NCBI RefSeq assembly: GCF_048771995.1
Contig: NC_133063.1
Coordinates: forward strand, 14,202,063-14,266,062
Reading direction: 5' to 3'
Length of the DNA stretch: 64,000 nucleotides
Source of the DNA: Taeniopygia guttata
Taxonomy: Eukaryota; Chordata; Aves; Passeriformes; Estrildidae
The translations under genes and the position numbers were made by a program. This document shows, piece by piece, positions 4,931 through 61,152 of this stretch. Positions within the stretch are counted from its first letter, which is position 1. Each line of letters opens with the position of its first letter. The notes beneath the pieces were generated by a model. The model was not told the origin of the DNA. It worked only from the letters and a program-made list of their open reading frames with translations, and did no database searches.

Positions 4931-5356
4931 CCTGGGGCTCGGCCCGGGCTGCGAGCGCGGAGCTACGGAGGCGGCAGCGCCGGCTCCTCCTCGGGCATCG
5001 CCGCGACCAGGGCTGCCAGCGGGGCCGGCTTCGCTTCGGAAAGGTGCGGGGACTGCTTCGCTCCGGCCGCTGCCATGGCCGGGGGTCGCCGCTGACTTGG
5101 GGGATCCGCTCGGGGGTGGCCGCGGAGGCGGAGGGGTGCGGCGGGCAAGCCACCGAGACACAGGGAGCCGCCGTCCTCAGTGATGAGCGGCTGAGGCAAG
5201 CCCGGGCGGCGACAGGTGGCGACGGCGGCGGGACCTTCGTGCAGCTGCACGGCCCATTCCGGGACACGGGCGCGGACAGCGGGGCCGTGCCGCGGCGGAG
5301 CGCCGTCCTTTCCCTCTCTACGCACTCCCTCCGCCGCTGCCCGCGAGGGTTCGGCG

Positions 5357-9922
<4,566 letters not shown>

Positions 9923-37820: not shown

Positions 37821-37971
37821 ATGGAAATGTTCCAGCATCAGCTACTCAGACTTGTTGGGGTCTGATTTGTTTCTGTAGTCTGGTAAAATGCATCAGATTT
37901 ATGAGATCTTTTCATGTATATTTGAAGTTCTTTGTCTTAGGTTTTCATTCATTTAGTGGGAGAATGAGCAG
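37821..37971 (+). pseudogene. HSD17B3: HSD17B3 remnant, exon 1
   Basis: ATG at 37821 opens a region of 151 bases (human exon 1 coding part about 154). One frame reads GLICFCSLVKCIRFMRSF, against human GLLVCLACLAKCVRFSRC. A frame change follows. The exon then ends GTG GGA GAA TGA GCA G before a good GTAAAG donor, matching human ATG GGA CAG TGG GCA G with the Trp codon turned to stop. Confidence 0.8.
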
Positions 37972-38171
37972 GTAAAGGAAACTGCTTCACTTTCTGCTTG
38001 TAATTGTTTGGTGGATTGTTACATAACTAATCAGGAATGGTTTTCCTTGCATTTCTTTACCCTGTTCCTTCAGAACGAAACACAATTTCTGATATGTGTG
38101 GTTTGCTTGGCTCCTTTTCCTTTTCTCCTAAAGCTTTGGGTTTATGAACCTGAAAGTTTTGTGTACTTGGG

Positions 38172-38545
38172 TGTCACTGCAGGCCCCCAGACAGGTAATA
38201 ATTAGCATTGACTCTATGATTGCAGAAGGCTGATCAATTACTTTATTATATAATCTTGTACTATGTTTTACTATACTTATTAAGAAACTCGGTCACCTTT
38301 ACAACCAGTCTGATACGGCTTTGACCTAGGTGGTCAATCTATCTGAACACCATCTAGTGTCTAATTAAGAAATCACTCTTTGATAAACAAATCTCCATGA
38401 CACATTCTGCATGTGCACAACAGCAGGTGCAAGTGGAGATAAGAATTGTTTCTCATTCTTTCCACTGATACTCTCACAGCCTTTCCCACGAAAATGCATG
38501 GGAAAGCCTGTGCCTGCTCTCTGTGGCCAGAGAGCTGCTGCCACA
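38172..38545 (-). mobile_element. Solo LTR, ERVK-like, with 6-bp target duplication
   Basis: The element starts TG and ends CA in the reverse direction, and is flanked by perfect direct repeats CTTGGG at 38166-38171 and 38546-38551. On the - strand AATAAA (TTTATT at 38242-38247) precedes a short 3' part. It belongs to the same family as the copy at 63173-63540, in opposite orientation. A 6-base duplication fits class II (ERVK-like) integration. No internal viral sequence adjoins it. It lies in intron 1 of the HSD17B3 remnant. Clean flanks suggest a fairly young insertion. Confidence 0.85.
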
Positions 38546-38551
38546 CTTGGG

Positions 38552-40442
38552 GAGAATAGAGAACTGGTCAGGCTGGTGTGTAAGTTCACACCCTGGTGTG
38601 TAATTAGGAATTCTCTCCCTGTTGCTACTTCTAATGGTTTCTCTCTGCTGCAAATGCTTTTCTTTTAGTAGCATTGCCCAGATCCTTAGTTTTCTGGTAT
38701 GTGAAGCTGCTAGTTTAGGTCTAGCATATGTTCTCCAGTTTTCAAAGCAACTTTTCCTGTTCCTGTTGATGTTGCTCCAGTGTGTTCTTTTCCAAATTGC
38801 TGACCTACCCTTGATGATACCATTAATGAACTAAATTTACTTTAGTCTGAAATCTTCAAAGGCTGCAAGTTTGCAGTGTTTTTTTAAGATAGTATGCATT
38901 CTTGTAGAATAACACAGAGTTTAACAAGCACCTGCTTCTTCCTATTGATCATTCATGATTTTTAAGCTTCTTAGACTATCAGTATAAAGCAGGGATGAAC
39001 AGGTGCTGCTGTTCCTGAATTCCTTGGCTGCTACTGTTGCTGATGGCAATTTGTTAAGAAATTACCTGAACAGTAGACTTGTGTTTGATTTCTTTTTCAT
39101 GCATTAGGCTTGACGGGACTAAATATATAAAACTATTACATAAATAATATACATTAATTAAATATATAACTGTTAAATATATGTTTAATCACCACATTTC
39201 CTAGTAGGTTAATAAATTAAATCCATTCCTGTAGAAGACCTTCCTGAATACCACATGCTTCTAAGGCAGTGCATAGGTCTTATTTTGATTTAAGTGAGGC
39301 AGGGACCTCCCACCTGTGTATGAGATGAGGAACACCATGTGGAACTTTCTGTGTAAAATCTTTCTTTCCTCTTAAGGTTGGAAGACATGTTTCTTTCAAT
39401 GGGCCTTTTTGCTGTGTTTTTTCTGTCCCCAGTAAAATTCGTAAGGCTCAGATAATTTGTGTTGTCGTGTGGCACATGAGATTCTGAAAATCATGAAAAT
39501 TAAAGCTGGCATGTGGAAGCTTGTTTCTCAAGGGATTCTTCACTTCTCATCTACAGGTCTGTTAGGAAACTAAGTACCTGCTACTCCTTCACTGGGATCT
39601 CACTTCCCTGTGAAATGAGAGAGTACTTGCTCCTCTGTTGGCAACACCTAACCATTCAAAACATCTTTGCTTTCTGTGTCTCTGACAACGCAGAATTCCT
39701 TAATCCATATTTTTTTATATTGACTAGTTTTTAATTTGCTCTAAAACGTACCAGGTTTACCTTGGAACTGCTTTGGTGCTTTGCTGCATTATTCTGTATT
39801 TCTAAGGTGTTAAGAATTTTTCTTTTTACAGTTCCTCTTTGATATTTATATGCATAGTGTTTAAAGTTCAGGGTACTTTACAAATGCCAGGATTTGTTTA
39901 TTTTCACAGTAAGACTAAACCCAAAAGTAAACTGTGTAGTACAGTTCTGCAGGAAGAGCATTTTATAGGTGGTGGCAAGTTTGATGTGATCTTTCCTTAC
40001 AGACAGAAATCTTGTGCGAGAAATAGTTATACCAGTTTTAGTTACCAGTTAGTCTTTATCTCCTACCATTCTGCCACCAGCATATAAATTCAAAGCTTGC
40101 AAAACAGAACTTGTGAAAATACATGTATAGAAGAAAATTCTGCCAGCTCTTAAAGCAACTGACTTGTTGCTTGTGGACACCATTGAAAATGAGAGTAATG
40201 GCTACCTCCTGTACCATATGGGCTACTTCAGGGAGAGATTTGCTTTAAAGACAGAAAATGCTGAATGAATAAGAAATGCATAGGTCACAAGATAAAAAAT
40301 TTAAAAGGCTGATTCTATTCTTCAGTGGAGACATTTAGGTTGTATTATTCAAGAAATGGAGATGATGAAGATTAAACAATTCAAAGAGAAGAAGCTAAAC
40401 TAGAGCTCCAAATGTAATCCATATCCTTTTTGCTTTCTCCAG
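38552..40442. other. Remainder of HSD17B3 remnant intron 1
   Basis: This is AT-rich sequence with a very A/T-rich patch at about 39117-39190. No gene or named repeat was seen. Confidence 0.5.
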
Positions 40443-40488
40443 TGGTCACAGGAGCAGGAGATGGGATTGGAAAAGCATATTCCTTCAG
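40443..40488 (+). pseudogene. HSD17B3: HSD17B3 remnant, exon 2
   Basis: After a good acceptor (TTTCTCCAG), 46 bases read VTGAGDGIGKAYSF in the phase expected after exon 1. This is the SDR cofactor-binding motif (human VITGAGDGIGKAYSFE, 47 bases by my count). The last codon has lost one base, and the next bases are GAAAAA instead of a GT donor. Confidence 0.82.
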
Positions 40489-40565
40489 GAAAAATATATT
40501 ACCTAGTCTTCATTTTACCTTAACAAAATGACAATTGCTATCCCTCCATCAGCATCTTCAGATTA

Positions 40566-40650
40566 GTAAAATCATTCTAATGACATGGCCATATCATTAT
40601 TAAAATTATTCTAATGACATGATCATTATTATAATGACATGACTATGTTG
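40566..40650. repeat. Short imperfect repeats around ATTCTAATGACATG
   Basis: The phrase TCTAATGACATG occurs near 40575 and 40609, with a shorter TAATGACATGA near 40632. This is a small degenerate tandem array of about 30-base units. Confidence 0.6.
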
Positions 40651-43600
40651 TAATATTTCTCTCCTATATAATCAGAATAGCTTTAATTGGATTCTGAAAG
40701 GAAACCACTGGTACATTTCAGAGGAAAGTCATTCGGGCCTCAGTGGTCTCATCAAACCAGGGAATTAAAATGAGTGATTCAAAAGAGGGCCTATTGTCTG
40801 TCCAGAGGAGGAAGTCTCCTAAATTGTCCCTTTTCTCCCAGTTTCACAGCAAATCTGCAATGGGCTGGCCCAGTATTAACACACAAAATGTATTTTTATA
40901 GCCGTTACACTTGCAAACACATATTGAAAATTTTATCTGAAGTAACCAATAAGGGAGAAACTCGTATAAATTAATATAAACTACAAGTTATGGAAAGTAT
41001 AAGGAATCCTAATAGTTTAATTCAGAATCAGGAGCTCTAGGAGGCTGCAGGAAGAAGAGGATCTCTGTGCTGCCCTGTAGCTGCTGCTGTGCAGAGTCAC
41101 TGCAGCAGCACCTTCCTATTAACCCGTGGTAGTCAGCACTGAGGGCAGGCTGGCCTTGTGTTGTGTTGAATAGCCTTACTATTACTTATTGTGACTGAGC
41201 AGTACATTTTCTCCTTGGTGTTTTCTTTCTAAACTGCCTCCCTTTCTAGAAGCTAAACAGCAGTTAATCAAGAGTTGCTGTTTTCAGGGCTGAGGTTACT
41301 GGATGGCAAAGAACATCTTGTAACATGCAAGAGTTTAGATGTGATGCCTTCTGCTCATAGATTATAAAAGGAAAGAAAAAAAATGGAATTGATTTACAAG
41401 ATTTTTTTTGCACTAGTCTTTTCATTATGCATTGTTTAAACACCTAGATGCCTTACGACTGCCATTGGTGGGAGTGGCAAAATAAGAACTACTTTTGAAA
41501 GAACATTGATTGTAGAACCAATACCAGGTATTAGAGTTTTACATTTGGCATAGCTGTGAAAAAAAAAACAAACATGGGAGAGAAGGGAAAATGCTGTCTC
41601 CTGCCTACTCACTGAGTTAAAGTATTAATAAGTAAGTGAAAAGGGTCTGAAGAATACACAGGTCAGGGGGAATGGGATGGGATCAATACAGAGAAAACAG
41701 GCATCAAAAATGCCTAAATATTTTTTTCATGTCTCTGGGTGAAGTCCTCTGCTTATGCAGCTGAACTAATTTTTTTTTTGTGAGCACCTGGTGATATTTT
41801 ATCCATGTGGAGGCTGTAAGAACCTGTGAATGTCTAGATTTGAGCCTCTGTCATTGTTCTGCTTTGTTTGTGCTGTATGGGTTATGCCATTAAATGGCCA
41901 GCTATATGCTGTATTATACCATAAGAAAGAGTAAACCCACTGCTGTTGTTTTTTTGAACTTGCCTAGAGCTGGATAGATTTTGTGGAACATTTGTTCATT
42001 ATTTTTGGTATTTGTGGGATGACTGAAAGTCATCTTTCTCCATGCTGAGATGTACCATCCTCTCCAGGTGGTCCCTTTGATTGAAGCTGTGCTCAGCTAC
42101 TGCTCTGTGGGACAAATCCCAAGCCCACACCACATGAGCTCATAGTCTGGCACATTACCTTGCTGGCTGAAGTAGAAGCACACACCTGTGTGTGGCTTGT
42201 AGATAAATAAACCTGATCCTGCTGTTTTAATATTTGTGTGCCTTCAGAGGTTCTGGGTTGGCACTGCTGTCTTGCTGCTCTGATGTCAGGATACAAAATT
42301 CTCTGATGTTCTGCTGCTGTACTGTACGGATGTGAAGGCAAGCCTTGTTTGATGGGCACAGTCTTCTGTAGTGTTAGTTCTGACGTCAAGTGATGAATTT
42401 CTTTCTGGTGTTCTGAGCTCCAGCATGGGCTGATAATGAGTCAAAACTAATTTAAGGACTCCTTACTTGGTAACATCTGCTACAAGATTCTACGGAGACC
42501 TGGTTTTGTGTTTTGGAAGGCTAGTGGAATGTGGTTTCCTGTGTTTAATTTTATGTAGAGATGCCAGGCGGTGGTTCATTGAATAAAACTCAGCAGACTG
42601 AAGTCCTGAGAGAGATTACAGTATCTGTGGGTTCCATACTCTTGTTTCCAAGGTTTATGCCTAGGTACAGGACTTTACAAAGTCTCTGAAGCTCAAAAGC
42701 TGCCTGGGGCTTTATGAAGAACCTGGCAGCCGTGAGGTCTCAGATCACTATTTTGTTGATGCCAGGACACAGACCTTTCATTTCACAAGCTTGTATTGAG
42801 AGCCAAGCAGATGTGGAACTTGAGTTTATCCTCTTCTGAATGACTATCCAGGCTTCCCTGAAGGCTCTAGATGTATTTTGAGTAGATGAGTTGTTTTGAA
42901 TGACTGACTTTGAAGATGAAGACCCTGACCTTTTAACTGACTGCTGTGATGTCAGAGTACTGGAATTTTGGATCTAGTTTGCTGTATGTACCAGGCTTCT
43001 GTAACAATTGGTCCATGAGTTCTTGGGCTGATGGGGTTTAAACTCACCAGACTTCCAAGAAGAAACAGAAGTAACTCATCTGTGAGTCTGCTGCTAGTCT
43101 GTCACATCTCTACTCAAGGGTTAGCATTTCAGGTACTGATGTAGTCTTGTTTGTTCCACTTTTGGGGTGTAGTAACTACAGATGGGCTTTATCATCTGTT
43201 ACTGATGTAGCAACTCAGACATACCAGGTTTATGGACGAGGCTGTGGCATATTCTGAGATTTATGGTTTGGCTTCTTCACACTTCTCATGTGTTGGAGGT
43301 CATAAGAAGGGTGTGCTTTGGCTCACATTGTCACCATTCTTGTTTCTGTTCATAGTTCATCAGTTTCTTTTATGTCAGGGCAGTGCTTGTGTTTAGTCAG
43401 TGTCTCAGCAGATGATTTTGAGACAGACCTCATTCATTTAAGATTCATTCATTTCCTAATTTACCAGCTCCTTGAATCTTAAATATTTGTTTCTTGTCCT
43501 AAAATTATGTGTAGTATTACCAGCAGTATAATACCTGTTAAATATGATCTGAGTTTTCCTGCTCTGGTTACAAAGTATTCTATTTTCTCCACTTGATCTT

Positions 43601-46600
43601 GGATTTATTCCTGGAAATACTGCTATTCTCCTTGCATTGCACAGAGCATGCAGAGCTAGCAGAAAAATTGCTAGATCATCCTGCTCTGTCATCTTGGTTC
43701 TCGTCTGCTGGATCAAAACCAGGGTTAACATATTTGAATCATACTTAGAATGAATGAGTTTTTGATTCATATGGACCCTACAGTTCTGAATCCCAGTTAA
43801 AGAAAGACAAAAAGTGAAACATGGATCATGTCAGGACAGTCCTGGAGAAGAGTGTCTTCTCTAGGAAATTGAAGATGATTGTAGGCAACTACAGATTCCA
43901 CAAATCATTAAAAAGGATTTTAAATTATTGCATCTAATGACCCATGTAGAATATAGTGAATTGCCAAGGTAAACATAGCTGTCACGTGCATTAGCAGTCA
44001 TGGTTTGAATTTAAAACCTATCTTGCCTTTCATGAAGCTTTACTGTTTAAAAAATCAATTCAGACTGAGCTGTAAAAACATGCTAGAAAATGCAGAGGGA
44101 CTTATTTACTCATTTAATTTGAACTTTTTAATCATGCATTTTTGAGATCCCAGAGTGCTGATTCTGAATTTTCTTTATCATAAGCCCTCTTTCTAAATGC
44201 TTAGTTGTCATGATTCTTTATGGCTGGAGTTGGCAATAATGATCTTACATTTAGGCAGACTGTGTCTCAGAAGCATTTTAGTCCTTTGCCACTGGGAGTC
44301 AGGATTTCCTAGCATATGCAGCTTCCCATTACACACTGGCCGGGAGCCAGTGCTTATTTTTTACTATGAAGGGAAACACCATTCTTTAACATCAAAGCTT
44401 TTCTATATTAGGAAAATTCTTTATGCTAAAGACATCAGCATTAAAAGCTACCATAATTTGAAATCTTAAGCCAGATCTAACCTTTCCTGAAGGTGGATGG
44501 GGAATTATAAGCACAATTATTTTTGTTTGCTTGAGAGTCTGTTTGTATCTCATGCTTATTACAGTGTCCTACAAAACCTGTTTCTGGAAAGATACACATT
44601 TTATATGTGGGTGAGGAAGCAAAATAAATCATTCAGGTGTATGGCTTCCTTTGCCTTGACTTCTGGTTAGTCTGGTGCACAGCAGCAAGGGAGGTTCCTC
44701 TCACCTGATAGGTAGCTTTTATAAGGTTGCCCTAAATATATGCTTTTAGGTGAAATACCATGTAACCTTACCAGTAAGAATCCCTTTATAGTTAGGTTTT
44801 AGGAGGGGGTTTTCTATCAAATTACATACAGAAACAAATATACGATACTGAGAAGCCCAGTGAAGCAGAACATTTTCTAAATTTGTGTATTACATGGCTG
44901 GTAATTGGTCTTGAGTCTGAAGATGCAAAAGTCTAAACAAACCCTATCCAAACACCTCCAAGTGACAGAAAGGAGAAAGTGATGCTGGAAGCAGAGACCA
45001 CATCTCTGACTGAAAATGCCTTGAGTCAAATTCCTTACAGACAATGGAAAATCTACCAATTTTTACCAATGGAAAATCTAGCATTATAGCTCTCTATTTG
45101 AGAGTTTCAAGTGGAGAAAGCAGACTCCTGAAACCCCAGAGCACCCAAGTCTGTGCAGGTGTCTTTGGAGCCCTGATCAATTATGTTAGAAGATCTACAC
45201 AACACAGAGCTGTGAGAAAATCTGAAAATTCAAATGTTTGTGGCTGATGCCTTTAGCAGGGTGATATCCCCTTGTACTCTTGATGGAGAAAATTTTTGAG
45301 CAAAGGTCCTTATTTCTTAACATTCTCTGCATTGCCTCATGAGAACTAAACAAGACAAATTGTTTCCTCAAATAGTTTTAAGAAGAAAGTGTTGAAGAAG
45401 TCAGCTATAGAAATTAATGGATCTTCTTCAGTGGATGGCCTTTTGGAGTTATTTCTTCTCTTCTAATCTTCTATTTGCTTAGAAGCTAAGCAAATCTGAA
45501 GGTTCTTTCAGATGATGTGAGCTTTATGGTTTGTGATGGCTAATTTAGCTCTTTCTCCTTTTTCTCACAGGCATTTTTCTAGTTTTAGTTTTATCTTTCT
45601 TTATATAATCAGCTCAGCTGACAATTGTTAATAACTTCATTTCAAAAACTGGGGCCATGATCCGTTCTCTGACTTTGCCTAAAAGTCTGATGGGAATGAA
45701 GGGCCTGAGAAAATGAGGAGATTTTCTATGTTTGTGCTGCACATAGTTACACCAAACCAACCATAAATGTATCATCATGTTAAATAGTGTTTGTAGCTAT
45801 AGAATTACAGCTATTGCCCATGTCTTTGTGGATGTATGTTTTTGTGACTCTATTTGGATTATTTATATGTATAATTCACCTTTTTTTCATTTGATTTTTT
45901 AATATTTATTTCTTTTAAATTTGCATTTAATTAAAAATAAGGAAAAAAACAGTTAAAATTTATCCATCAAACCTGCATCAGATCTTATTTATATTCAATA
46001 AAAAATAATAAAGTACAAATCTTTTCTAGCTATTGGGCCTTCAATTAAATAGGTTTAATGCACTTCCTCAGGAAAAAAATATGATGATGGAAGGTAAAAT
46101 GACTGGAAAGCCAGTAACATGGTGAGGCTCCCAAACCCAAATAAATATAAAAATAAAATTTTGTTTCTGAGAAATTTCATGTGATTTTCATTCCCTGAAG
46201 ACTTTCATTCATTTGAAGTTGGCTCAAATTATTTTTATTCTTTCATACTATTGGGATTTGGTGGTTGTCCAGTTTATTTTTCCTGTAAGGGTCCAAAATT
46301 ATGCAGTGAAGGAAATATTCTGGAAGTCTCTAGAAGACTGATTATTTTGGCCTGGTTTTATCATCTATTATTTATCCATTGGGCAAGTGACAGGTGAGTG
46401 AAAACAATTTCAAGATTCATTATTGCTGTTTTTGCAAAACTGTAAAAAATTGAAAGATTCTTGCCGCCTTACTGTTTCCTAACCATTTTATACTCCTCTC
46501 TTGTTCCTGTAAAGAAGTGGATTAACTATAGTGATGATAAGGAGAACTTTTGGTAAACATTTGTCTTAAAATTATCCTCCCATTTACCTCCCTTTACAGG

Positions 46601-47740
46601 GATCTGCAAGTCTTTTCCCTTGTTATCTAGCACAGCAGGGTGCTGGATATTGCTACAGCTTACCTCCAAGTATTTCTCCAATACTAAAAACTTTTTTATA
46701 TTACTGTGTCGCTTGAGCTCTTCTAGACATGGATCACTATAAAAATATATGTTTACTTTCAAAGCCTGTAATGGGCTAAAAAAAGGTGAATGTGTGCTCT
46801 TTACTACCTTTATCTGCCCTTAAAAATCTGTAAATACAGAAAAATAAGTTACCTTTAAAGTAGTTCTAGGAGCAGAGCAGAGGAAGATTAAAAACAAAAT
46901 CAAAGTACCAGGTTTGTTTTTTGGTTGGTTGGTGGGTTGTTTGGTTGGTTTTTTTAAGGCTTTCAAATCACATTTGGCTCTTGATTGAACAGTTAAATAG
47001 TGCCTTTAGAATTAATGTTCCCTTTCTTTTCTTCAAAGGAAATTAACCATTAATCCTGGTGAATGTCTTGTATAAATACTTTAAGATTGACAGTTAGAAT
47101 TTATTTAGGAGTCAAATGAGTTTTTATCCTCCATTAACTTTACAGATTGCTAGAATGAAAATCATTCTTTCCACTGTCTCTTTTTCTATACATGGCTTCT
47201 ATCCAGCACATTCCTTGATTTACATGTTTAAAAGTATGTGTCAACCCAAAACTATATCTATACAAGTTGGAAAGACCTGTCTTTAAGGAGCCTTAGCAGC
47301 TGAGTCCAACAGAGTATCAGGTCCAGGGTACTTACCTAAGAGACCAGCACATCTATCAGGGATGTGGCAGACTTGGATGAAAAAGTCTGCAGATTTTCAA
47401 ACTGCAACTACTGAAATCAAGGAATGGACCCAGAAATTTTCTATTCAACATGCCTCTTTTTTTAAAAAAAATTTTTTTAAAATATATTTGTTTTCCCTTG
47501 GAAAGCAAGGGGTACCTGATGAGGAAAGCTGTAAATTCCTCTGCATTATGATTGAGTACAAGGCGCTCCACTGGACACCTTCCTAACTGAGGCCATACTG
47601 CAGTGCACTGTGTAGCTGCATGTGGTGAAGGACTTGCCTGTCCTGCAAACACTCCTGCACCTTCTGCACCCACCCATGGATTTTCACCCGTTCACTGACA
47701 GCTCCGAGCTTTGCTGACAGCAGCAGTGTTATCCATGTAA
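40651..47740. other. HSD17B3 remnant intron 2, left part
   Basis: This is mostly AT-rich sequence. The block at about 42.0-43.4 kb is less AT-rich and has a protein-like open frame on the - strand (42093-42389) that I do not recognise. The rest shows nothing I can name. Exon 3 should lie to the right. Confidence 0.5.
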
Positions 47741-47747
47741 TCCAAGG

Positions 47748-48487
47748 TGTGGGGAGGTATCTTGTGTGACCCCAGAAGTCAGGCTACACTTATAAAGTTT
47801 ATACACGGTTGTTGGGGTGTGGTTTTAGTTCCCCTATATTATGGTTTCTCCCTCTCCCCCTCTTTATGTTACATGGTCCGTCCCTCCTTCTCCTCCTCCC
47901 GCTTTCGCTGTCAGTCTTCCCTCTCCCCACCCCTAATGGGTAACCTTCCACTGAGTCATTCCCCTGACCCCAACTCGGGCCTGTCTGTCACCCTGAGGCC
48001 TCTCCCTTCTATCCGGAACCTTCCAGCCAGGGCCTCAGGTGATAGGCTGATCCCTGGGGACCCCGCCCTCCCTCTCACCTTATTGGATCCCTCCTTTGAT
48101 TGTCACTCCCTTCACCACTCCCTGGTTATTCCCTATTGGTCCCCAGTTGTTCCCTCCCATGCTGCCACCCCTGTCTATAAACCCCTACAAGCTGTACTCA
48201 GTTGCCTTTTGCGGCATACCTGATTCAAGCTGAGGTTGGTCTTTCAGGCTGCCAATAAACTTGGAGCAGCGGTACCCTCAGAAGGACGACTCCCGTGTCT
48301 TTATCACCGTCACACAAGGTCCTTTACTGGTCTGGCCGAGCTGAACTCACAGGTCACACCCCTCACCCGCGGTGGTCATAGGGGGTGGCCTTTGTTGTCA
48401 AGAGTGCTGAACACCGAGCTAGTCGCAGACCAAAGGAGGCACCACGAGACATGGTTCCGCCTAGTTGTGGTCACAGTCTTTCCCACA
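47748..48487 (+). mobile_element. Solo LTR of an avian endogenous retrovirus, about 740 bp
   Basis: It is bounded by TGTGGGG and CCCACA, which are inverted complements at the tips. The left half is C/T-rich and enriched in ATTGG-type boxes, like a U3. TATAAA lies at 48176-48181 and AATAAA at 48254-48259, in the spacing expected of an LTR, so it points right. GC content is well above the surroundings. No clean target-site duplication was found and no coding part adjoins it. The family is not named here. It appears largely whole as an LTR. Confidence 0.75.
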
Positions 48488-48489
48488 AC

Positions 48490-50868
48490 TTGCTGAAATA
48501 GGTGGCAAATCCCGATGAGGTATTTGAATTGTTTTCGGCAGGTTTTGGCTGAAGTCCAGAGTGTGTCATCTGTTATTTATTGTATCAGGTTGGAAACTAC
48601 TACCTTAACAACAAGTAGATGGCACAAACGAAAGGAAAGAGAGAAAAATACAATAACGAAAAGCATAGAGTATCTGCTGTGGAGGCACTTAAACCACCAG
48701 GAAGCTCTGGACATATTACTCTTGTTTGCTTTTTTTTTTTTTTAATATCTACACAATACTTTTTCACAGTCCATTGGACATAATATTGAAAAGACTTGCT
48801 CCATTTTCAAAATGATTGTATTATTTGCCTAATTATATTGCCACATCTGTTTGGATACTGGGTGCTATAAATTAAAAGAGTCTAAGCTGTGGGTAATTAC
48901 AGACATTCAATGTTTGGCTTTCCAAGTTCTGTGGGCCACAGGTGTGCCTGAGAACAGCACTCAGAAACCCACAGTAAGAAAAACATTTCTCCAAAGATAC
49001 ACTTGAATTGAAAACCAGATTTCCATCCATTCAGACTGGAAAGTTTTTTTTTTTTAATGAGATAAAAATACCAAAGCAGATGTTACAGAGGGCAGACAGA
49101 ATCACTAGCACAGGTATACTGCTCATTTAACACATTTAGTACTGCAGTTGTGAAACATTGATCAAACCAGAATACCAGGGGATTAGGAATGATGGAATGC
49201 TACTAACTGCAGTCCTGTTTCATTTCTTCTGCTTGTATTTCCTTAGCAAGCTGTGCAGGCAGAGCTAGCTCCTCTTTGCAAATCTGTACCATACTGTTGT
49301 TAAAGCCAAATAAGCAAACAAGCAAACAAACCAAAAAAGCCACTTCTGCAAAATACACTAAATCTCAATTTACTCTCCTATCTGTAAATTTCCACTGAAT
49401 ATGAACACCGTCTAAGATTTAGTGCTTCTCTCTTTATATTCAAGTATTGCTGTAGTACTTCAAGAAGGCCTTTCAAGATCAGTTCTTGTTCCATTTGGGC
49501 ATTCATTTTGCTATGTTGATTTTCAGAACATCTTCATAACTCTCTAAACTATCTAAATAGGAGGAATTGATTCTGGAATGCTCTATGTCCTAAACAACTT
49601 CATGATTTATTTATTCTGATTGATTAGCTTTTTGGTAAATTTCAAAAAGCAGCACATTATCCTATCTGACAGCAGATTACGAACTGGCCTAAGGTTAGAA
49701 GGAGTTAGATGTAAAAGTCTTAGCAATACATCTTATAACACATTGAACTAACCAACTTGGTTCCACTTTTAATTTTCCTTAAATTAGTCTTTACTCCATT
49801 ATTTAAAATAAAATTTTAAAAAATTTAAAAAAAGACAAAAGACAATAACCTGTCCTGGTGTTTGAAAAGCTAGGCCTTTTACCTCTATGACACTTAGGAG
49901 TTTTAAACAGAGATGTAATGGCTTGTATCTTCAAAGACTATCATAAATCTTTGTCACAGAGAGGGAGAGACATAAGAAACATTGAAAATTGTTTTTTGGC
50001 TCTCTCCTTTGCAGAATTGCTATAATTTTCTGAAGAGCTATCCCTGGGTAATTCATTTGTCAGCATGAGAGTTTTATTGGTTTTTAATATATTGGTTTAT
50101 TTTTATAAGAGACAGAGGAAACCCATCTGGAGTACTTGTTTGTTGGCTGACAGTGCTGGTTGCAGCCATACAGTTCTGTACAGACAAGGAGTTGCAGAGA
50201 AAGCCCAAATGGCTTGTTTGATCCTCATTTTTATGTTGCTCTAGTTTTGGCTGCCCTTCTGATTGCCCACGAGAAAGATGGCCACAACATCACTGTACAT
50301 TTTAAGACCATCTCATTTTGTTTATAGAGCTCTTCAAACAGAAGGTCACTGTAGGTGTCTGCTCCAGCTGTTGCTCTGTTCTTTCCCACTCACTGCATTT
50401 ACACTCACAATGTCCTTTTATTTATAGTTTCACCATTCGCCCAGCCTGGGACCATGACAGGGTCATTTGCCACTAGAGTTGCTTTTATAGGTTGAAAGTT
50501 CAAAGGATGTTTTGTCTCTTTCATACACAGAACTGCAGCTTAGAAAAAGGGCAAGAAAAAGGGCAGTCCTTCCTCCTTTCTTCTGTCATGGAGACAGATG
50601 TCCTCTAAAACTGCATGCAAGATGCAACCCACATTTCAGATCTGCAGTCAGTGTGCTTGCAGTTTCCTCAAACTGTATTATTTGAGTAGTGTAAGGTGGT
50701 CAAAACTAGCAGTTTGCAAAGAGCTTTGAGGGACAAACAGGAACAACTGGAAGGTAGCAACTTTATCTCATTCTCCACTCCAACAGAGGTCACAATTTTG
50801 ATTTTGATTTGTCACAAATTGGCCTGCTGGACCCAAAGCCAACTTTCTGTGTCCTTGGTCTCCCACAG
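48490..50868. other. HSD17B3 remnant intron 2, right part
   Basis: This is AT-rich sequence with short A- and T-runs (48729-48743, 49045-49056). No gene or named repeat was recognised. Confidence 0.5.
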
Positions 50869-50929
50869 GACCTGGCACGAGGCCTGTTGTTAGTTGAATG
50901 AGCACCACTGGATGAGACAAAATTTCTGG
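50869..50929 (+). pseudogene. HSD17B3: HSD17B3 remnant, exon 3 (candidate)
   Basis: After the acceptor-like TCTCCCACAG the bases CTGGCACGAGGCCTG and GTTGTTAGTTGAATGAGC resemble the human start of exon 3 (LAKRGLNVVLISRTL). A GTAATA donor follows. The segment is about 15 bases shorter than the human exon (76) and carries a TGA in the matching frame. The match is partial and needs alignment. Confidence 0.45.
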
Positions 50930-51988
50930 GTAATAGTTCAGCAAGTCTGATTCCTGTTCAAGGCAATGCTTTCTGTTTTCTGTATTATAAGATCAGAATA
51001 CACACCAGCAAAAGACATCTTGCCAAAAGCCACGTGCACTTTTTGCCATGAGTGTGCACCTGAATTCCTGCCACTTGCAGATATCCTGCAATCTGATATT
51101 CTATTGACATTTCCAAGCTTTGTCTGTCACTTTTTCAGCAAACTTCATCTGGATTTCAGGTTGCCCATAAAACTTGGGCAACTGGGTTTAGTAGCAGAAA
51201 TTTACAATGTAAACATCTATTTAGAGGAGACCTTATTTAGAGCTTAGGAGACTAACCCTCTAGTTAGAGGGCCCTTTTAACAGAGAGTCTTGCCTTTAAA
51301 AATGAGTAAATAAGAGTTTCTACTTCTTTTCCTCATGCAACTGCATTGAAAATATGAACAGCAATAAATCAAGTGCTGAAAAAAAAATGGCAATGTACAG
51401 CTGCGCTCACCTCCTGCATAGAAATGACATTGGAAAAATCACACACATTTCCCTTTCCCTTCTAATTGACCTTGTAAAATTTACTCTATAGGCTCTCTAA
51501 AATGCCTTTTAGGGCTGCAAAATCCCAAGAAAGGTTCAGACCATGAGAGTGCAAATGTTAAAACAGGCAAGGAATTTTTAAAAAATAATGCAGAAAATGC
51601 TACATCCCATCCATCCTTGTTTACCCCTCCTACTGTGTAAAAAGATAAGTTCCACTTGTTAAAATGCTTACCTTATCCATCAAAATTCTTTTAAACTGTT
51701 CTGCAAAGTTGTGCTTGCATAGGGGATCTGGCATTCACATTCATTTGTCTAATGTATGCTGACGGTGTTCATCTATAAATATTATGATAACAAGGGGAAC
51801 AAATCCTGTGTGGGTTATTTCTGAATTTGTTTTGGTTTACCTTTCTGAAGGACTAAAAGTTGTTTAGATCTTGTAAGAAAAATTCCATTGATTTCAGGGC
51901 ATAAATTCATCCTATATATTCCAGACCGTTTTCCTGAATACAACTAGGTAGAGTGAGAATATTATGCGTGTGTTGTGTTATTTCGTAG

Positions 51989-52022
51989 AGTAAGAAGGTT
52001 GAAACAATTGCTTGATGTACAA
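51989..52022 (+). pseudogene. HSD17B3: HSD17B3 remnant, exon 4 (weak candidate)
   Basis: Following TTTCGTAG the frame GTT GAA ACA ATT GCT TGA TGT ACA resembles human VKIIQADFT, one codon shorter and with a stop. It is in the right order between exons 3 and 6. The similarity is short and could be chance. Confidence 0.3.
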
Positions 52023-52729
52023 TGGACATTACTTAGCAAGACATCTGGTTGTTTCTCTCTTTACAGTTCTCCCTGTTTCTGAGTAGATGAAAACAAGTTT
52101 TCTTGGCTGGTTGGTCTTCGGTTTTGGGTTTTTCTTTAGTTACAGGGCTGGCCACAGAAAAGGGTGAAGGGTATACAATATGATTTCACTAAAAATTTGG
52201 TATATTTTTGTAATTGTGTAAAATTTGGTGAAAAATATCTGAAGGATGTGGATATAGGTGTTCTGGGTCAGTCATTAAGGTCTGTTAATTGACAAGTATT
52301 TTATAGCTGTAGTGTATTAAACAGATCATTGTATAAATGATGTGTTGTATCAACTTGTTAGCCAATGCTTAAAACCAAGTATACATGAGTCTGTGGCTTA
52401 TTATCTGGTATGACTCATGAAGCAACAGTGAAAACATGGCATTTTGGAAGGTTTTTTATATTTTTAAAGAAAGTCCTTTTAATAGTTAAAGAAATTAAGC
52501 AACAGCAACAACACACAAACAACTTTAGCAAGTCTGTTTTTCTATTCCCCAAAGACATCACTCATCAGTATCAGTGATTTCAGTGGAAACAAGACTTGAT
52601 GCTAAATAGTATTTCTCTTCACATGTAGCTCACAATCTTCTGGGTCTTGAGGAGAAGGAATTTCTTTAACTAGATGAATGATGCACTTTGTCTAGATTTG
52701 ATTCTTAACATTGTATTTTCTCTGACTAG

Positions 52730-52797
52730 TTAGCAATGTTTGAATGCTTCATAATCCTCTTCCATGCCGTTTCCTTAATGGGTCAAACATAGAAGAG
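52730..52797 (+). pseudogene. HSD17B3: HSD17B3 remnant, exon 6
   Basis: The exon has the same 68-base length as I count for human, with no indel. It reads SNV*MLHNPLPCRFLNG against human NNVGMLPNLLPSHFLNA, after the acceptor CTGACTAG. The conserved glycine of the NNVG motif is a TGA. The donor position reads TTATGA where GTATGA would be expected. Confidence 0.85.
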
Positions 52798-53509
52798 TTA
52801 TGATTATTCTGTAGATTTCATCTTCTAATATAACAATGAGTTTATTGAACAAGTATTAACTGTTCAGTTGGGTTGGAAACAAACTGGGCCTGAAGAAGCA
52901 TATTTTGACTTGGTTTTAATGCTTGGAAGAGCTTGAAAGAGAAAAGGAATAGTAGTTTTCAGCTAAACTACAGGAAGCATCCACTGATAGAGGGGAGAGT
53001 ACAGCTGACCTGTTTGTAGCAGGGATTAGCAGACTCCCTGACTCCCTGCTGGCTTGTAGTACAATGGGGTCCAGTCCATCCACAGCCACAGCTGAAAATA
53101 TTGGGTTCTTGTTAGCGTTATGTAAACTTAGTTTCTTTGGGACACATTGCTTAAGTATTTGGAAATAAAAAAACAAACAAACCAAATCAAGAAAAAATAA
53201 GAAAGAAAAAAAGAAAAAAGAAACCTCATTTAAATATTGTTTACTTAGTGGGGGAATTAATTTACAGTGGTTGAACTGAGTGACAGGATTAAGGATGTGA
53301 TCAAGTTCTCCATTGCCTTATTATTATTTACCTCTGTATCACTTGCAATGAAAAGGCCAGAATTTCTAAGTGTGTATCTTGATAGAACCCCTCTCAGGAT
53401 TCATTCAGTTTTTATGTCATCATCTCTTCCAAATCAGAGAATCTCAGGCAGGCTGCTTCCCTCAAACTCTGACTTAAGGACAAATTTACTGTTTTGTTGC
53501 TTCCTGCTG

Positions 53510-53580
53510 GACCTTGTCAACTGCAATATTTCTGTTTCAGGTGGGTATGTGACACATTCCCATCTGTTCTAGTGCTGTAA
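53510..53580 (+). pseudogene. HSD17B3: HSD17B3 remnant, exon 7 (candidate)
   Basis: LVNCNIS matches human LIHCNIT. Slightly further on, ATGTGACACATTCCCATCTG resembles ATGACACAGCTAATTCTG of the MTQLIL codons, with small indels. The acceptor AG is not preserved. It is in the right order between exons 6 and 8. Confidence 0.45.
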
Positions 53581-56500
53581 TGTATTTCATCAGAAAAAAA
53601 TCAGTCCCATATTAGAGTGACCAACTAGCTTTTCTGTGTATTATCATTTAATTCATCAGCAGACAGAGATTTTCAGCAGGAATGTCAGTGTTAATTTAAG
53701 GAACCCACCTGTTTCTACTACCTGTGAAATATTTTGATCAGAACTGACTGGAAAATTTTGCTCAGTTGAAACTCATTTTTGCACTACAACTGAAACAGCT
53801 AAAATATTTCACAAATCATTTTTGCTTTGATATGCAGGGAGATTTGCTTCAGAATTAAAGTTTTCAACACTGGTAAACCTACAGTTTGAATTTTAGCACT
53901 GTACTTGCGATTTTTGTCACAATTCTCTTTTGCCAACGTGTTTTTGGATCAATGCAGGACAGAAACTCCAGAAACTGTCTCCTAATTCTGTATTGTTACT
54001 CCTTGGTGCTAATTTTGGTTGGCTCTTTTGCCTCCAAGAACATTTAGTATTTCATGCTTTTCAACTCTGATTAAGATTTGTATTGCTCTGCTGTTTGCAA
54101 GCAGCATGTTAACATGAACATGAGCAAAAGATCTCAACCTTGGCTTTCATGCCTTTCATGTCTTTCTAAAAATGGCATGAAAACTAACAGCAGATGTTTG
54201 TCCTTCTCTGGCTTTCAAAATTTACATCCCAAATTTGTACTGCTGCTTAATGACTCAAGATAGTAAATCATGTAATACCAGTCAATGGAAGCACATTCTG
54301 TAAGTAGCTTTGTGACATTTCTGCTCCTAGGATATATTCTATGTCAAAAGAACAGAAATATCGGCAATATCTGAATGCTATATATAGGCCATTCTGTACC
54401 CTCTCAGTCTGGATACAGAAGGTTTTTCTTTTCATCATTTCCCACTTTACATATATCTCAGAATCAATCTCTTTTGTTTTTGCAGTGTCTGGGCATTGCT
54501 TTCCCCACTGCTGCAACCACATTCTTTTGAGTGTTTCACGAATATTCTCTTTCCTCCAAATTACAGAGAAGAAAGTACTCTCCTAGCCAGCATTCCTCAT
54601 GGTTAGGTCCAAATATTGGATTTTCCTTTCCCCTCTCTGGATTCCTGCTAAAATCCCATTTGCCATTTCTCTCAGTGCAATGCCTGAGGTCCAGGTATCC
54701 TGACTCCCACAGATGTCACTGGGATTTTCAGCACTGCAAAAGAAGGATCTTTTCTCATGTTTTGTGCTTTGTTTGGAAATCCCTCTTCATCCATGCTGAT
54801 GTGACTGCCCTGTGTTGTCAGACTTTATCAACCCACATTGCTCCTACTATCTTCTTGAGCACAATGACATAACTGAAAAAAAAAATCAGGAAATAACAAG
54901 TGTTCAATTAAACTGTGCCATTAATTTGCACTACTTTTCACTACTGCCCTTTACAAATTAGATCGCACTGCTGTCTTGACACAATTCATAGTGCAAGTAT
55001 GACTTCGCCTTGGTACTTAGGCTTACTATCAATAATACCCTTCAAAAGCACAAAGAAAAGCTGATTTCTTACCTGAACAAATGCATCTAATTTCACTTCA
55101 AAAATCAGATGTGTGATTAAGTCTATTGCTAAAATAAGAATGAAAAAAAAAAAAATTAGCACTAAAACAGGTCCTACATCTCTTTCTGGAAGCAGAAAAA
55201 ATTGATATATTTTCCTGATTTTCTACAATTTCTGTCCAGCTGCAGGCAGAAGGGAAAATGCAAAAGGAACATGGAATTGACGTTCTCCTTGCAGTTATGT
55301 TTCCATGTTGAAGAATTATGAAATTCAGAAACTGTTGAAAAGCTTTGGATAAACATAAGACTCTCACTGCTTAGAGGCTAACCTTAGGAATTTTCTGACA
55401 ACTCGGATGATTTTCAGGCCACAAGAATTTCTAAAATATTTTCCAAAATGTTGAATATGCCATATTTTAGCCATTTGAGCTGTATATATATGGCTTGATC
55501 AAGTGAAAAAACCTGTTATTTAAAATAAAATCAGTTCAAAAATGCTGTCAGGAAGATGGGGGATGGAAAGAATTCTTAAAATACTTGTCTTATAAATGAC
55601 AAAAATAATTTTGAAACAGATGCAAGCAAGGTATTTTTTCTATAACTTTGAACTGTGTTAAGCTTCTACCTTCAAAGACTTTAGTGGTAGTTAGGCTTTT
55701 TCATTAACTTCTGGACTTCACACTCTATCAATCAGTAAGGTATCTTTTAGTTCTGTTAGTGCTTTATGATTATATGCATAGGAACTCCCACAAATTGTCA
55801 GTCAATTGTAGAACAGAGCAGGAAACAAAATATATATCTGTCCCCAGTTAAAAATGTGTGGCAGAAATATAAGAGAATGTGATGGGCCTAATCAAGCAAG
55901 AAACAGCATTTGAATGTATCATCTGTTCTTCTAAGAGTGGTAGTTTGGCTTGGAATAATGCTTTTCAAGCTCTGGAAATACCCATATTACTAATTAGCGA
56001 TATTAATTCATCTCTGTGATTAAGGATCCCTGTCTTCCTTTTAAAACTACATGTATTTTAGACATGGGGTACTTAAACTAGAAGTTTGGCACTATGGATG
56101 GATTTTCTAGAAAATATTGTTAAATACTGCATTTTAGAGGCCAGTACATGCTTTTAGTTTTGGCAGAAAAAACACTTCTTGCTGTTTAATTTTTATTTTG
56201 TTTTGTTTTTATCTCATTGTTGCTAAATGCATTGGGTTTTAGTGATGTGTACAGGGAGTTGTGAATGGGGAAACAAAACCAACAGATCCATGGAGCAGGA
56301 AAAATAATGTGCTGGCTAGAGACCAAAGGGGATCAGCCAATTACTTAGGAGAATAAAAAATTTCCTCTGATGACAGACTTTTTTCTCTGTTAGATGTACA
56401 ATTGCATGTACAATGTTCCCATGGTTCTGACTGTGGCAGGCATTTCATTTTCACTTATTACATTATTCCTGTCTGGTTTAGACCAAACTAAATTGTAAAA

Positions 56501-56638
56501 AAGGGGTCTTTTGAGGGCACACTTGACAGTATAGGAGAGTTATGCCTTCTGGGGAAAAAAGTGTTTTCTGCTGATGCAACCTTTTACTATAATCCCATAG
56601 AGTGTAAACAGAATGTAACTTTTTAAATTCAATTTCAG
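53581..56638. other. HSD17B3 remnant intron 7
   Basis: This is AT-rich sequence. No gene, RNA gene or named repeat was recognised. The short open frames have no domain. Confidence 0.5.
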
Positions 56639-56720
56639 TCAGAAAGTTCTAATTGTGAATCTGTCCTCTGGTTCAAGTACTTTCCCTTGTCCATTATATA
56701 CAATGTACTCAGCTACTAAG
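56639..56720 (+). pseudogene. HSD17B3: HSD17B3 remnant, exon 8 with catalytic motif
   Basis: After the acceptor AATTTCAG, 82 bases (the same as my count for human) read QKVLIVNLSSGSSTF then PCPLYTMYSATK, with no stop or indel. The human sequence is QKGLILNISSGIALF then PWPLYSMYSASK. The SDR catalytic Ser and the Tyr and Lys of YxxxK are all kept. The donor that should read GTAAGT is ATAAGT. Confidence 0.88.
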
Positions 56721-57525
56721 ATAAGTCTTCCACACTGCTTTATGAAGAAATCCCCATTAAGTGTTTATCAAAGCATTGTATCAATATAACGAATGATGAG
56801 TATATGAATAGCATTGCTCCATTGAAATAATGAAGTAACATAAATTAGCACTACCTGACAACCAGGAATCAATGAAATGATGTACATGAAATCAGCTCAG
56901 GGTATATCTGATCCTTGGAATGATTTTGCCTTTGATTAAATAGTATTATAGCAGTGCTCACAATTTGTCTTAATTCTGGGAAGTGATGAATTTTTCTAGG
57001 CTCACTTATCTAGCTTCCTTAAAACTGTAGATGCACAAAAGTGCTAGATTTTGCTTATGGAACCAAGAATAAAATTCTGGTAGGTGACTGGTAAGTTGCC
57101 TAACTTCATAGATTTCACCTTAAATTTTTTCTCTGAATTTGAATCCATGAACTTGCAAAACTGAGGAATGAATGATTTTGAATAAAACTCCAAAACTAAT
57201 TTGATCAACTCAGGTTTCTTTCAAATTAAAAATTCGAATTATATTTTCTTGAATGTAGCTAAAGTTTAGATTGGCCAAAAAAAGGTATATTTTTGGTAAG
57301 AAAGTATCATTTTCTATTTCCTTTTTCTCCTTCAATATAAATCCTTCATTGCTCAAAATTTGAACTTCATTCAAACCAGACAATTTTAGGTCCTTAAAAA
57401 TGTTTAAAATGTTTACTTAACATTACTTCCAAGTGATATAGTACATTAGTAAGATTATGTTGTCTCCTTGTCTTTTTTCATTCTCAGGTATCTTATAACT
57501 TTGGGGTTTCTTTTGTTTTGGCCTG

Positions 57526-57611
57526 GTTTTTTTTTTTTTTTTTTGTTTTTGGGGTTTTTTTTGGTTTTTTTTTTTTTTTTTTTGTTGTTGTTGTTGTTTT
57601 TGTTTGTTTGT
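57526..57611. repeat. Poly-T / (TTG)n low-complexity tract
   Basis: T-runs are broken by G, with TTGTTGTTGTTGTTG near 57583-57597. It yields a Phe-rich open frame that is an artefact. Confidence 0.9.
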
Positions 57612-58086
57612 ATCATGCAATACCATGACAGTGTTGGTGTTGCAATTTTAAGACTATCAAATGATGGATTTGAAAAACAGTCTTTTTTTTTTCCTTACTA
57701 TGACTTTTATATTTTTAATTACAGAGGAGCAATTCAACATCATCAAGTTTTTGACTATTTCTCAAAAAGGTCCAACTCCTAAAATCTCTCCTGAAAGAAA
57801 CTCAACATTTGCATAAAGTCAGTATATGCATACTCTTCATGATGTGGAGAAAAACTTAGATAAATCTAAAAGATTGAAGCTAAAACTTTCCTTCAAATTC
57901 AGAAATGCTTGACTTTGAAACATTTATCTGTAGATTATGCTACTAGGTGAATACTGAAGGCACAAGTTTCATTTTGCTCCACTTTTCATTGCAAAAAACC
58001 AACAAGTGCAAGTGTCTGTCTGGTACGGAGGGATCATCCAGAGCAGAGAGCCACATGGAACAATATCTAGAATAAGTGGGACTTGG

Positions 58087-58131
58087 GGATGTATATGTCT
58101 ACTTTTAAAAGGTCTCAAAGCTTGCAATGCA
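58087..58131 (+). pseudogene. HSD17B3: HSD17B3 remnant, exon 9 (weak candidate)
   Basis: The frame GCICLLLKGLKACNA resembles human AFVCAFSKALQEEYKA in its Cys, Lys and Leu spacing, and GT follows. No good acceptor precedes it. The length is one codon short. It may be chance. Confidence 0.28.
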
Positions 58132-58778
58132 GTCTGCAGTACTACTTGTTGCATGTCCAGCTCAGGGCAGTGCCAGGTTCCATTTTTTCTGGCACAGAGA
58201 AAGAGTCAGCCTGGCCCGGGTGCACCAGCAGAAGCTATATCTTGAAAGCTTTATTTTTAAATTTTACACCACTGCCCTGGGACTTAGCTTGTACAATGTT
58301 AGGCTGTTTGTGTTGAGGACATGGTCACACATTTCTGAACACAGTGAAAGCACTTAGTTTCCTATGCTAATGATTTGTTTGGTTTGGTTTGGTTATGTTC
58401 TATCTAGGCTTTTATAAGCACTTCTACAACCACTACAAGCAGAGTATAAAGCAAAGGTAATTATCATACCAGTGTTGGTGTATCTTGCCATATTAGCCTT
58501 TGTTTTAGCAAATTCTCCAAGAATATTTGAGATGCCTAAATCCGTATCGTGTAGCTGTCTTCAGTGAACTGCTGGGTGACTCTGCAAAAGTTCTGTCTCC
58601 CCTCTATATGCAGCTTTTCCCTTATTTCACCATAATACTATCACTGATTCCATATAGTGCCCTAATCCATTGCAAATATCAGTTAAAATATGTCAGATGC
58701 TATGGGATTCTGCAGAGTGCCTTATGTAAGTATTAGATAGCACTACACTGTTGTTGTTACTATTATTTTTTATTTTAG

Positions 58779-58928
58779 ATAGTGCTTCCTGATGGTGTTT
58801 CTGCTCCAGTGACAATGTACCAAAACCCTGATGATATTACAAAAACAGCAGAGGAACTTGTTTGTGAATCACTGGAGTATGTCACCTTTGGAGATGAGAT
58901 TTTTGGATGTTTCATCCATGAAATTCTG
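58779..58928 (+). pseudogene. HSD17B3: HSD17B3 remnant, exon 10
   Basis: After TATTTTAG the frame reads IVLPDGVSAPVTMYQ, then ITKTAEELVCESLEYVT and GCFIHEIL. The human sequence is QVLTPYAVSTAMTKY, then ITKTADEFVKESLNYVT and GCLAHEIL. There is one codon fewer and no stop. The bases after CATGAAATTCTG are ATTGAA, so the donor is gone and the frame stops seven codons later. The first few codons of the human exon are not seen. Confidence 0.88.
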
Positions 58929-59884: not shown

Positions 59885-61152
59885 ATTGAGTCCAGAAGAC
59901 AAATGTTTTGACTGGATGCCTGTCAAATCAAATTGGATGCTGTTAAAAGGTATTTCAAGGACAATGCAATCACCAGGCATAGTCATTGTGAGTTCATAAA
60001 GGGAAAGTCCCACCTAATTAATTTGATACCCATCTAGAATAAGGTAACTTGCCTAGTGGATGAAAGGAAGGTGGTAGGTGAGGCTTTTCTTGATTTTAGT
60101 AATATTTAGTAAGATTTTGGTAAGATTTTTGATGCTGTCCCTCAAAGTGTTCTGGACAAGCTGCTGTGATGATCAGGTTCACAGTGTGCTGGACGAAGAA
60201 CTGGATGAATGTCAGAACTTCAGGGGTTTTAGTGTATAGGGCTACATCTGCCTGGTGAGCAATCACCAGTGTTCCTCAGGAATTCACTGTAGGACCAGTT
60301 CTGGTTTATCAAGTTTATCAATGATCTGGATGCAGGACTTGAATGGGCCATTTGCTGACAACACTAAACTAGGAGATGCTATTGACTCTCTTCAGAGACA
60401 AGAGGCCTTCCAGAGGGATCTGAAATAGATTGGAGCAATGGGTAATTATCAGTGGCATGAAATTTAACAAGAAAAAATACAGAGTCTTCCCCTGGGATGC
60501 AGTAAAGCTGGGCACAAGTATAAGCTGGGAGAGGAGTGTGTGTAGAACAGCCCTGCAAAAGGGATCTGGGGGTGCTGGTTGGCAGCAGCTCAGGCTGAGC
60601 CAGCAGCGTGTGCCCGGGCAGCCAGGAGGGCAAATCCCATCCTGGGGTGCATCAGACACAGCAGCACCAGCTGGGATTGGGATCATCCTGCTGGATTCAG
60701 CCCTAGTGCAGCCTCACCCTGAGTCCTGTGTGCAGTGCTGGGCCCCACAGTCTGAGAAGGGTGGGAAGGTCCTGGAATGGTCCAGAGGAGGACAACTGAG
60801 CTGGTGGAAGGGCTGGAAGGCAGATCCTGTGGGGAGAGGCTGAGGGCTCTGGGCTGTCTGGTTTGGAGAGAAGGAGGCTCAGGGGTGACCTCATTGCTCT
60901 GTACAGCTCCCTGAGGAGGGGACCTTGGGAGGGAGGGTCTGATCTCTCTGCTCTGGACATTAGGATGTACCTCCCTGCTGAGAGGATGGTGAAACACTGT
61001 CACAGGCTTCCTAGAAAGGTGGTTGATGTTCTGTGCCTGTCAGTGCACCTGGACCATGCTGTTCACCTTGGGCTTTAACTTCTAGTCAGCCCTGAAGTGG
61101 TCAGGCAGCTAAACTACACGATCTCTTTAAGTCCTTTCCAACTATTTTATCC
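59885..61152 (+). mobile_element. CR1 LINE, about 1.27 kb, with RT remnant
   Basis: This is the longest CR1 copy in the window. It runs from within the reverse-transcriptase domain to near the 3' end. RT landmarks are visible: FLDFS...FDAVP around 60087-60140, and FADNTKL around 60351-60371, where the catalytic FADD reads FADN. The later noncoding part has the phrases GGGATCTGGGGGTGCTGGTT and GTCAGCCCTGAAGTGGTCAG. Against the consensus as I recall it, roughly 100 bases are missing near 60955. It has many stops and is inactive. Confidence 0.85.

Follow-up and report, generated by a model that had tools for sequence, protein, structure and literature searches.

Remnants of HSD17B3 in the zebra finch point to a unitary pseudogene, probably Z-linked and probably dead since the songbird ancestor

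The window analysed here is a stretch of 64,000 nt from Taeniopygia guttata (contig C40, positions 14202063–14266062, in a genome of 1.14 Gb and 41 contigs). At 37821–58928, on the + strand, it carries the remnants of HSD17B3, the gene of a testosterone-making enzyme. An earlier note on this DNA had recognised at least five ordered exon-like segments of the gene; tblastn, shuffled queries and collinear chaining now place ten of the eleven expected exons, all in order:

37821–37971, + strand: exon 1 remnant, matched by ruff HSD17B3 in two frames (tblastn E ~1e-6)
40443–40486, + strand: exon 2 remnant with the NAD(P)-binding motif TGAGDGIG (tblastn E 3e-4)
46507–46557, + strand: exon 3 remnant, scoring above 40 shuffled queries and also matched by the hawfinch model
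52139–52266, + strand: exon 4 remnant (tblastn E 0.003 with ruff, 0.002 with rifleman)
52730–52797, + strand: exon 5 remnant, 68 bases (tblastn E 1e-7)
53509–53544, + strand: exon 6 remnant, weak alone; recovered along with adjoining intron by the tree-finch model P0198 (E 1.8e-6)
55596–55630, + strand: exon 7 remnant (MTKIILKQMQA), scoring above 40 shuffled queries
56639–56720, + strand: exon 8 remnant, 82 bases, with YTMYSATK (tblastn E 5e-9)
58408–58471, + strand: exon 9 remnant, weak alone (rifleman E 0.079), its span taken from the exon-skipping isoform P0158
58779–58928, + strand: exon 10 remnant (tblastn E 1.5e-18 with ruff), bounded with the read-through isoforms P0122 and P0123

Exon boundaries were taken from the isoforms of other birds: P0158 leaves out exon 9 with the frame preserved, whereas P0121, P0122, P0123 and P0134 continue past donor sites. 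Ancestral frames and bases were likewise deduced from intact bird proteins and these read-through isoforms, rather than from the DNA of other birds. Both exon lengths given in the earlier note, 68 and 82 bases, are present in the window; the 68-base exon, which had been called exon 6, is presumably exon 5, going by the human mutation nomenclature.

All ten remnants depart from the intact proteins of other birds by a frameshift, a stop, the loss of a splice site, an insertion or an altered length. Exon 1 keeps its ATG and is followed by GT, and a +1 frameshift in a run of G near 37857 leads to a stop at 37863. Exon 2 is short at its 5' end and has no GT donor, while exon 3 is truncated, contains a TAA at 46510 and lacks its acceptor AG. 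The frame of exon 4 is open, with 15 extra bases. Exon 5 has a TGA at 52741 and TT at the donor position; exon 6 has TG at the acceptor and a tail of altered length; exon 7 lacks its acceptor AG and keeps its GT donor. Exon 8 is an open frame with AT at the donor. Exon 9 measures 64 bases, compared to 66 in other birds, which produces a frameshift, and exon 10 is open with its donor missing. Altogether, seven splice sites have been lost (the donors of exons 2, 5, 8 and 10 and the acceptors of exons 3, 6 and 7), and the window contains neither the single open reading frame nor the intact splice sites of a functional enzyme. The earlier note had reported nonsense codons, frameshifts and dead donors, and this observation is confirmed and strengthened by the stops in exons 1, 3 and 5, the frameshifts in exons 1 and 9, and the four lost donors. 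Exon 11 was sought without success over the final 5.1 kb of the window and a further 40 kb downstream; the best match (E 0.020) was on the wrong strand. The remnants are spread over 21 kb with their introns kept and are therefore not a retrocopy, in agreement with the suggestion that the gene died in place.

The identity of the segments was examined in several ways. Human HSD17B3, used as the query of a first tblastn search, matched the + strand collinearly; the queries of later searches were the proteins of ruff, rifleman, ostrich, chicken, parrot and turtle. With ruff, exons 1, 2, 4, 5, 8 and 10 were matched at E ≤0.003. In local alignments tested against 40 shuffles each, exon 3 scored 44, 47 and 54 with ruff, rifleman and hawfinch (shuffle maxima 36, 44 and 37), exon 7 scored 48 (maximum 39), and exon 6 alone scored 32, below its maximum of 39. 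Collinear chains were then scored on both strands of the HSD17B3 region and of three control regions of 20–22 kb. The HSD17B3 region gave 234 with ruff, 256 with rifleman and 204 with turtle. The highest score from 100 shuffles of the ruff protein was 84.3 on this region and 84.7 over all four regions, and real HSD17B3 queries reached at most 79.6 on the controls. Human HSD17B12 scored 74.0 on the HSD17B3 region and 73.9 on a control region. Since the chain scores of HSD17B3 far exceed those of the shuffles, the controls and HSD17B12, the match is both real and specific.

No second copy of HSD17B3 was found in the 1.14-Gb genome by a search with the ruff protein at E 0.001, in which 20 candidates were scored; the earlier note had suggested such a search. 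The ruff protein had five matches, of which three lie in the window, one on contig C13 and one on contig C7. The latter two presumably belong to an HSDL1-like and a DHRS7-like gene, respectively. Exon 10 DNA matched only itself. As a control for the search, HSD17B12 was recovered as six stop-free matches at 24.42–24.50 Mb of C7, covering residues 3–54, 69–162, 171–215 and 226–289 of 312. HSD17B1 likewise gave six stop-free matches on contig C29, spanning approximately residues 1–287 of a 291-residue query. Both are candidate replacements for HSD17B3, their names being based on these matches rather than on trees.

Two other genes lie upstream in the window:

12998–33177, + strand: SLC35D-type nucleotide-sugar transporter, 11 segments without stops by tblastn, assigned to SLC35D2 by position
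5216–8666, + strand: zinc-finger exons, upstream of the SLC35D-type gene

The query for the SLC35D-type gene was the human paralogue SLC35D1; two of the 11 segments are weak (E 3.9 and 0.11), and the last exon could not be located with this query. The HSD17B3 remnants follow directly downstream on the same strand, which bears out the position after SLC35D2 given in the earlier note. We take the zinc-finger exons to be those of ZNF367, so that the order would be ZNF367, SLC35D2, HSD17B3. This agrees with the human gene order, in which HSD17B3 likewise comes after SLC35D2. A full HSD17B3 protein of Spheniscus humboldti (P0158) bears the name SLC35D2 isoform 6, an indication that gene models of this penguin run through from SLC35D2 into HSD17B3. 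At 7295–7529, there is a perfect tandem duplication (122-base unit, 1.9 copies, 100% match) that is either very recent or an assembly artefact. A long T-rich run of low complexity occupies 57527–57609 in the intron between HSD17B3 exons 8 and 9, and the sequence at 60300–61150, downstream of exon 10, resembles by eye the tail of a CR1-type repeat. Contig C40 measures 82.2 Mb and is probably the Z chromosome, because the zebra finch and duck HSD17B3 genes sit on Z according to passages in two papers (PMC2865489, PMC9643717).

A protein search with the joined pieces of the window returned 185 proteins at E ≤0.001, of which the best 120 are listed and considered here. Among the matches listed, HSD17B3 is continuous in chicken, duck, ostrich, parrot, owl, hummingbird and ruff. 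At least six passerines could be recognised, namely the rifleman and five songbirds. The protein of the rifleman Acanthisitta (P0133), a basal passerine, is partial at 274 aa and continuous to exon 10. Continuous proteins in the rifleman and in many non-passerines contradict a loss in birds generally. The interpretation in the earlier note thus stands with respect to identity, place, introns and death in situ, but not with respect to scope: songbirds are the exception among birds. The songbird models are the following:

blue jay, P0187: 224 aa, low quality
tree finch, P0198: 233 aa
myna, P0201: 178 aa, low quality
hawfinch, P0216: 198 aa
New Caledonian crow, P0217: 179 aa

None of the five reaches the full 310 residues, and all five look broken. 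Comparison with the window indicates that they are short because broken sites have been bridged with intron sequence. The tree-finch model reads the equivalent of window intron at 52094–52162 and 53459–53566, the myna model does so at 51518–51574 and matches exon 9 together with flanking intron (E 3.6e-6), and the crow model runs on beyond exons 4 and 8. The first 12 residues of the jay model are identical to window intron 50454–50489 (E 0.025), a stretch that is perhaps a conserved intronic element. Where the window has no acceptor for exon 6, the tree-finch model reads into the exon through the same LLD sequence, and exon 10 ends in HEILIEFG or SEILIEFG in hawfinch, P0226 and P0227, as in the window, compared to HEMLVIEF in other birds. 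At the level of these sequences, both features look like lesions shared at least among finch-like birds.

Relaxation of constraint was assessed in exons 4, 5, 8 and 10, with 39 hand-picked non-passerine birds as the reference. Short, partial or low-quality rows were left out (e.g., P0137, P0153, P0184, P0190, P0192, P0195, P0197, P0199, P0203, P0208 and P0222), and the songbird-like P0225–P0227 entered neither these counts nor the tree described below. Mean identity was 90% among the non-passerines (741 pairs), 88% between these and the rifleman, and 75% among the songbirds and the window (15 pairs). At sites invariant in the 39 non-passerines, changes were found at 13 of 62 sites in the window, 6/62 in jay, 12/54 in tree finch, 9/57 in myna, 11/47 in hawfinch, 8/54 in crow and 1/62 in rifleman, the songbird counts being slightly inflated by read-through intron residues, above all in crow exon 5. 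When exon 9 was included, a corvid and a passeridan had the same new residue at 12 of 128 highly conserved sites; ten remain once sites 204 and 205, which come from read-through intron, are set aside. At none of the 12 does the rifleman depart from the usual residue. In a tree of 159 columns with 24 non-passerine birds, four reptiles, the rifleman, five songbirds and the window, the window groups with the five songbirds (support 100) on a stem branch of 0.10, and its nearest relative is the tree finch (support 90).

We consider that the zebra finch HSD17B3 is a unitary pseudogene that died in place, probably on the Z chromosome, in an oscine passerine (songbird), with a probability of about 0.9. 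To judge from the protein comparisons, it has probably been dead since the songbird ancestor. The raised number of changes in songbirds, the residues that they share, the conserved rifleman protein and the full support for the songbird clade would place the release of selection in the songbird stem, after the rifleman lineage had split off and before crow-like and finch-like songbirds parted; the remains would then have decayed separately in each lineage. Several observations weigh against this reading. In the window, the frames of exons 8 and 10 remain open. Contrary to expectation, the tree joins the rifleman to a honeyguide (support 94) instead of the songbirds, and most of its deep nodes are weak. 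Non-passerines, too, have some short or low-quality models (e.g., sandgrouse P0192), so that such a label alone is no proof of loss. Furthermore, the other songbirds were compared as protein models rather than as DNA, which makes their shared lesions deductions.

As the main rival reading, some of the same models could mean that the gene died several times and more recently, in separate songbird families. Several lesions look private: past exon 8, the tree-finch and crow models continue as VNLSH, so that GT is implied where the window has AT; the tree-finch model also crosses exon 1 without the frameshift of the window, and the jay model reaches exon 11. Such repeated loss is unlikely considering that changes at conserved sites are elevated in each of the six songbird copies, that about ten new residues are common to corvids and passeridans, and that the songbird clade has a long stem branch. 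We find it very improbable that songbirds retain a working gene in a truncated or re-spliced form, as might be read into the word "distinct" in a zebra finch paper of 2010. Such a form could draw on the open frames of exons 4, 8 and 10 and on the YxxxK motif, which survives in the window, and automatic models exist for five songbirds. However, exons 1–3 are damaged by a frameshift, a stop and the loss of splice sites, of which seven are gone in all, while the models bridge the breaks with intron sequence and conserved sites have changed.

An intact Z copy might also exist if the window were misassembled or held a degenerate copy from the W chromosome, given that birds have Z and W gametologues and that HSD17B3 maps to Z in zebra finch and duck. 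This is most improbable: no other copy was found in the 1.14 Gb searched, the 11 segments of the neighbouring gene are free of stops, and the models of other songbirds are broken as well. Contig C40 is also larger than the size we would expect of a songbird W. The short-chain dehydrogenase fold is widespread, and the segments could in principle belong to another member of that family, an outcome that, according to the earlier note, would refute its reading. With HSD17B12 at control level on the region, this explanation is refuted for practical purposes; among the matches listed, the named proteins are of HSD17B3 type, bar a few such as P0158 (SLC35D2) and P0215 (hypothetical).

With HSD17B3 broken, some other reductase has to convert androstenedione to testosterone. 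In the songbird testis this may be HSD17B12, the closest paralogue and our first candidate, with HSD17B1 as the second. It is fairly likely that HSD17B3 was lost once, in the songbird stem (perhaps including suboscines), that the group makes testosterone with a different enzyme than mammals and most other birds, and that HSD17B3 primers, assays and models there address a pseudogene or an artefact. Songbirds are a main animal model for the shaping of brain and song by testosterone, and HSD17B3 is regarded as the enzyme that completes the hormone in the testis; if they are without HSD17B3, another enzyme finishes the hormone, and its identity can be tested in testis and brain. The automatic songbird gene models named HSD17B3 should be kept out of expression or selection studies. 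In humans, HSD17B3 deficiency impairs masculinisation, and a songbird loss would be a natural counterpart to that condition and to the fertile Hsd17b3 knockout mouse.

The gene has come up before in this species. As far as passages of the 2010 study go (PMC2865489), a partial HSD17B3 with about 24 kb of partial matches was placed on Z, no further exons were found, and an assembly gap or a "distinct" gene was suggested as the reason for the incomplete gene model. That model resembles the remnants described here in being partial and, probably, in being Z-linked, and differs in that those passages contain no statement of a pseudogene or of a loss in songbirds. Work on ruff and duck regards HSD17B3 as an expressed gene (PMC8213371, PMC9643717), which agrees with retention outside songbirds, and hsd17b3 figures as an enzyme of testosterone synthesis in the introduction of a great tit study (PMC6220976). 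Our literature search, which covered open-licence papers, found no description of HSD17B3 loss in songbirds; lineage-specific unitary pseudogenes are known as a kind, and this instance appears to be undescribed in the literature searched.

Compared to HSD17B3 in other birds and reptiles, the window has the same exon order and strand, the same 68- and 82-base exons and matches at the level of residues, but it differs in its frameshifts, stops and seven lost splice sites and in that exon 11 was not found there. Hsd17b3 knockout mice are reported to stay fertile and to keep their basal testosterone, which one paper would attribute to HSD17B12 (PMC7496839) and another to an unidentified dehydrogenase (PMC11698012). 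The likeness to songbirds lies in fertility and basal testosterone without the HSD17B3 enzyme; the loss in the mouse was engineered and is compensated by raised LH, whereas that in songbirds would be natural and old. Lineage-specific unitary pseudogenes reported among birds include CNR2 in parrots (PMC9727682) and MOXD2 in birds (PMC4830563). Like HSD17B3 in the zebra finch, these genes died in place while relatives kept them, but here the lost gene is one that makes a sex steroid.

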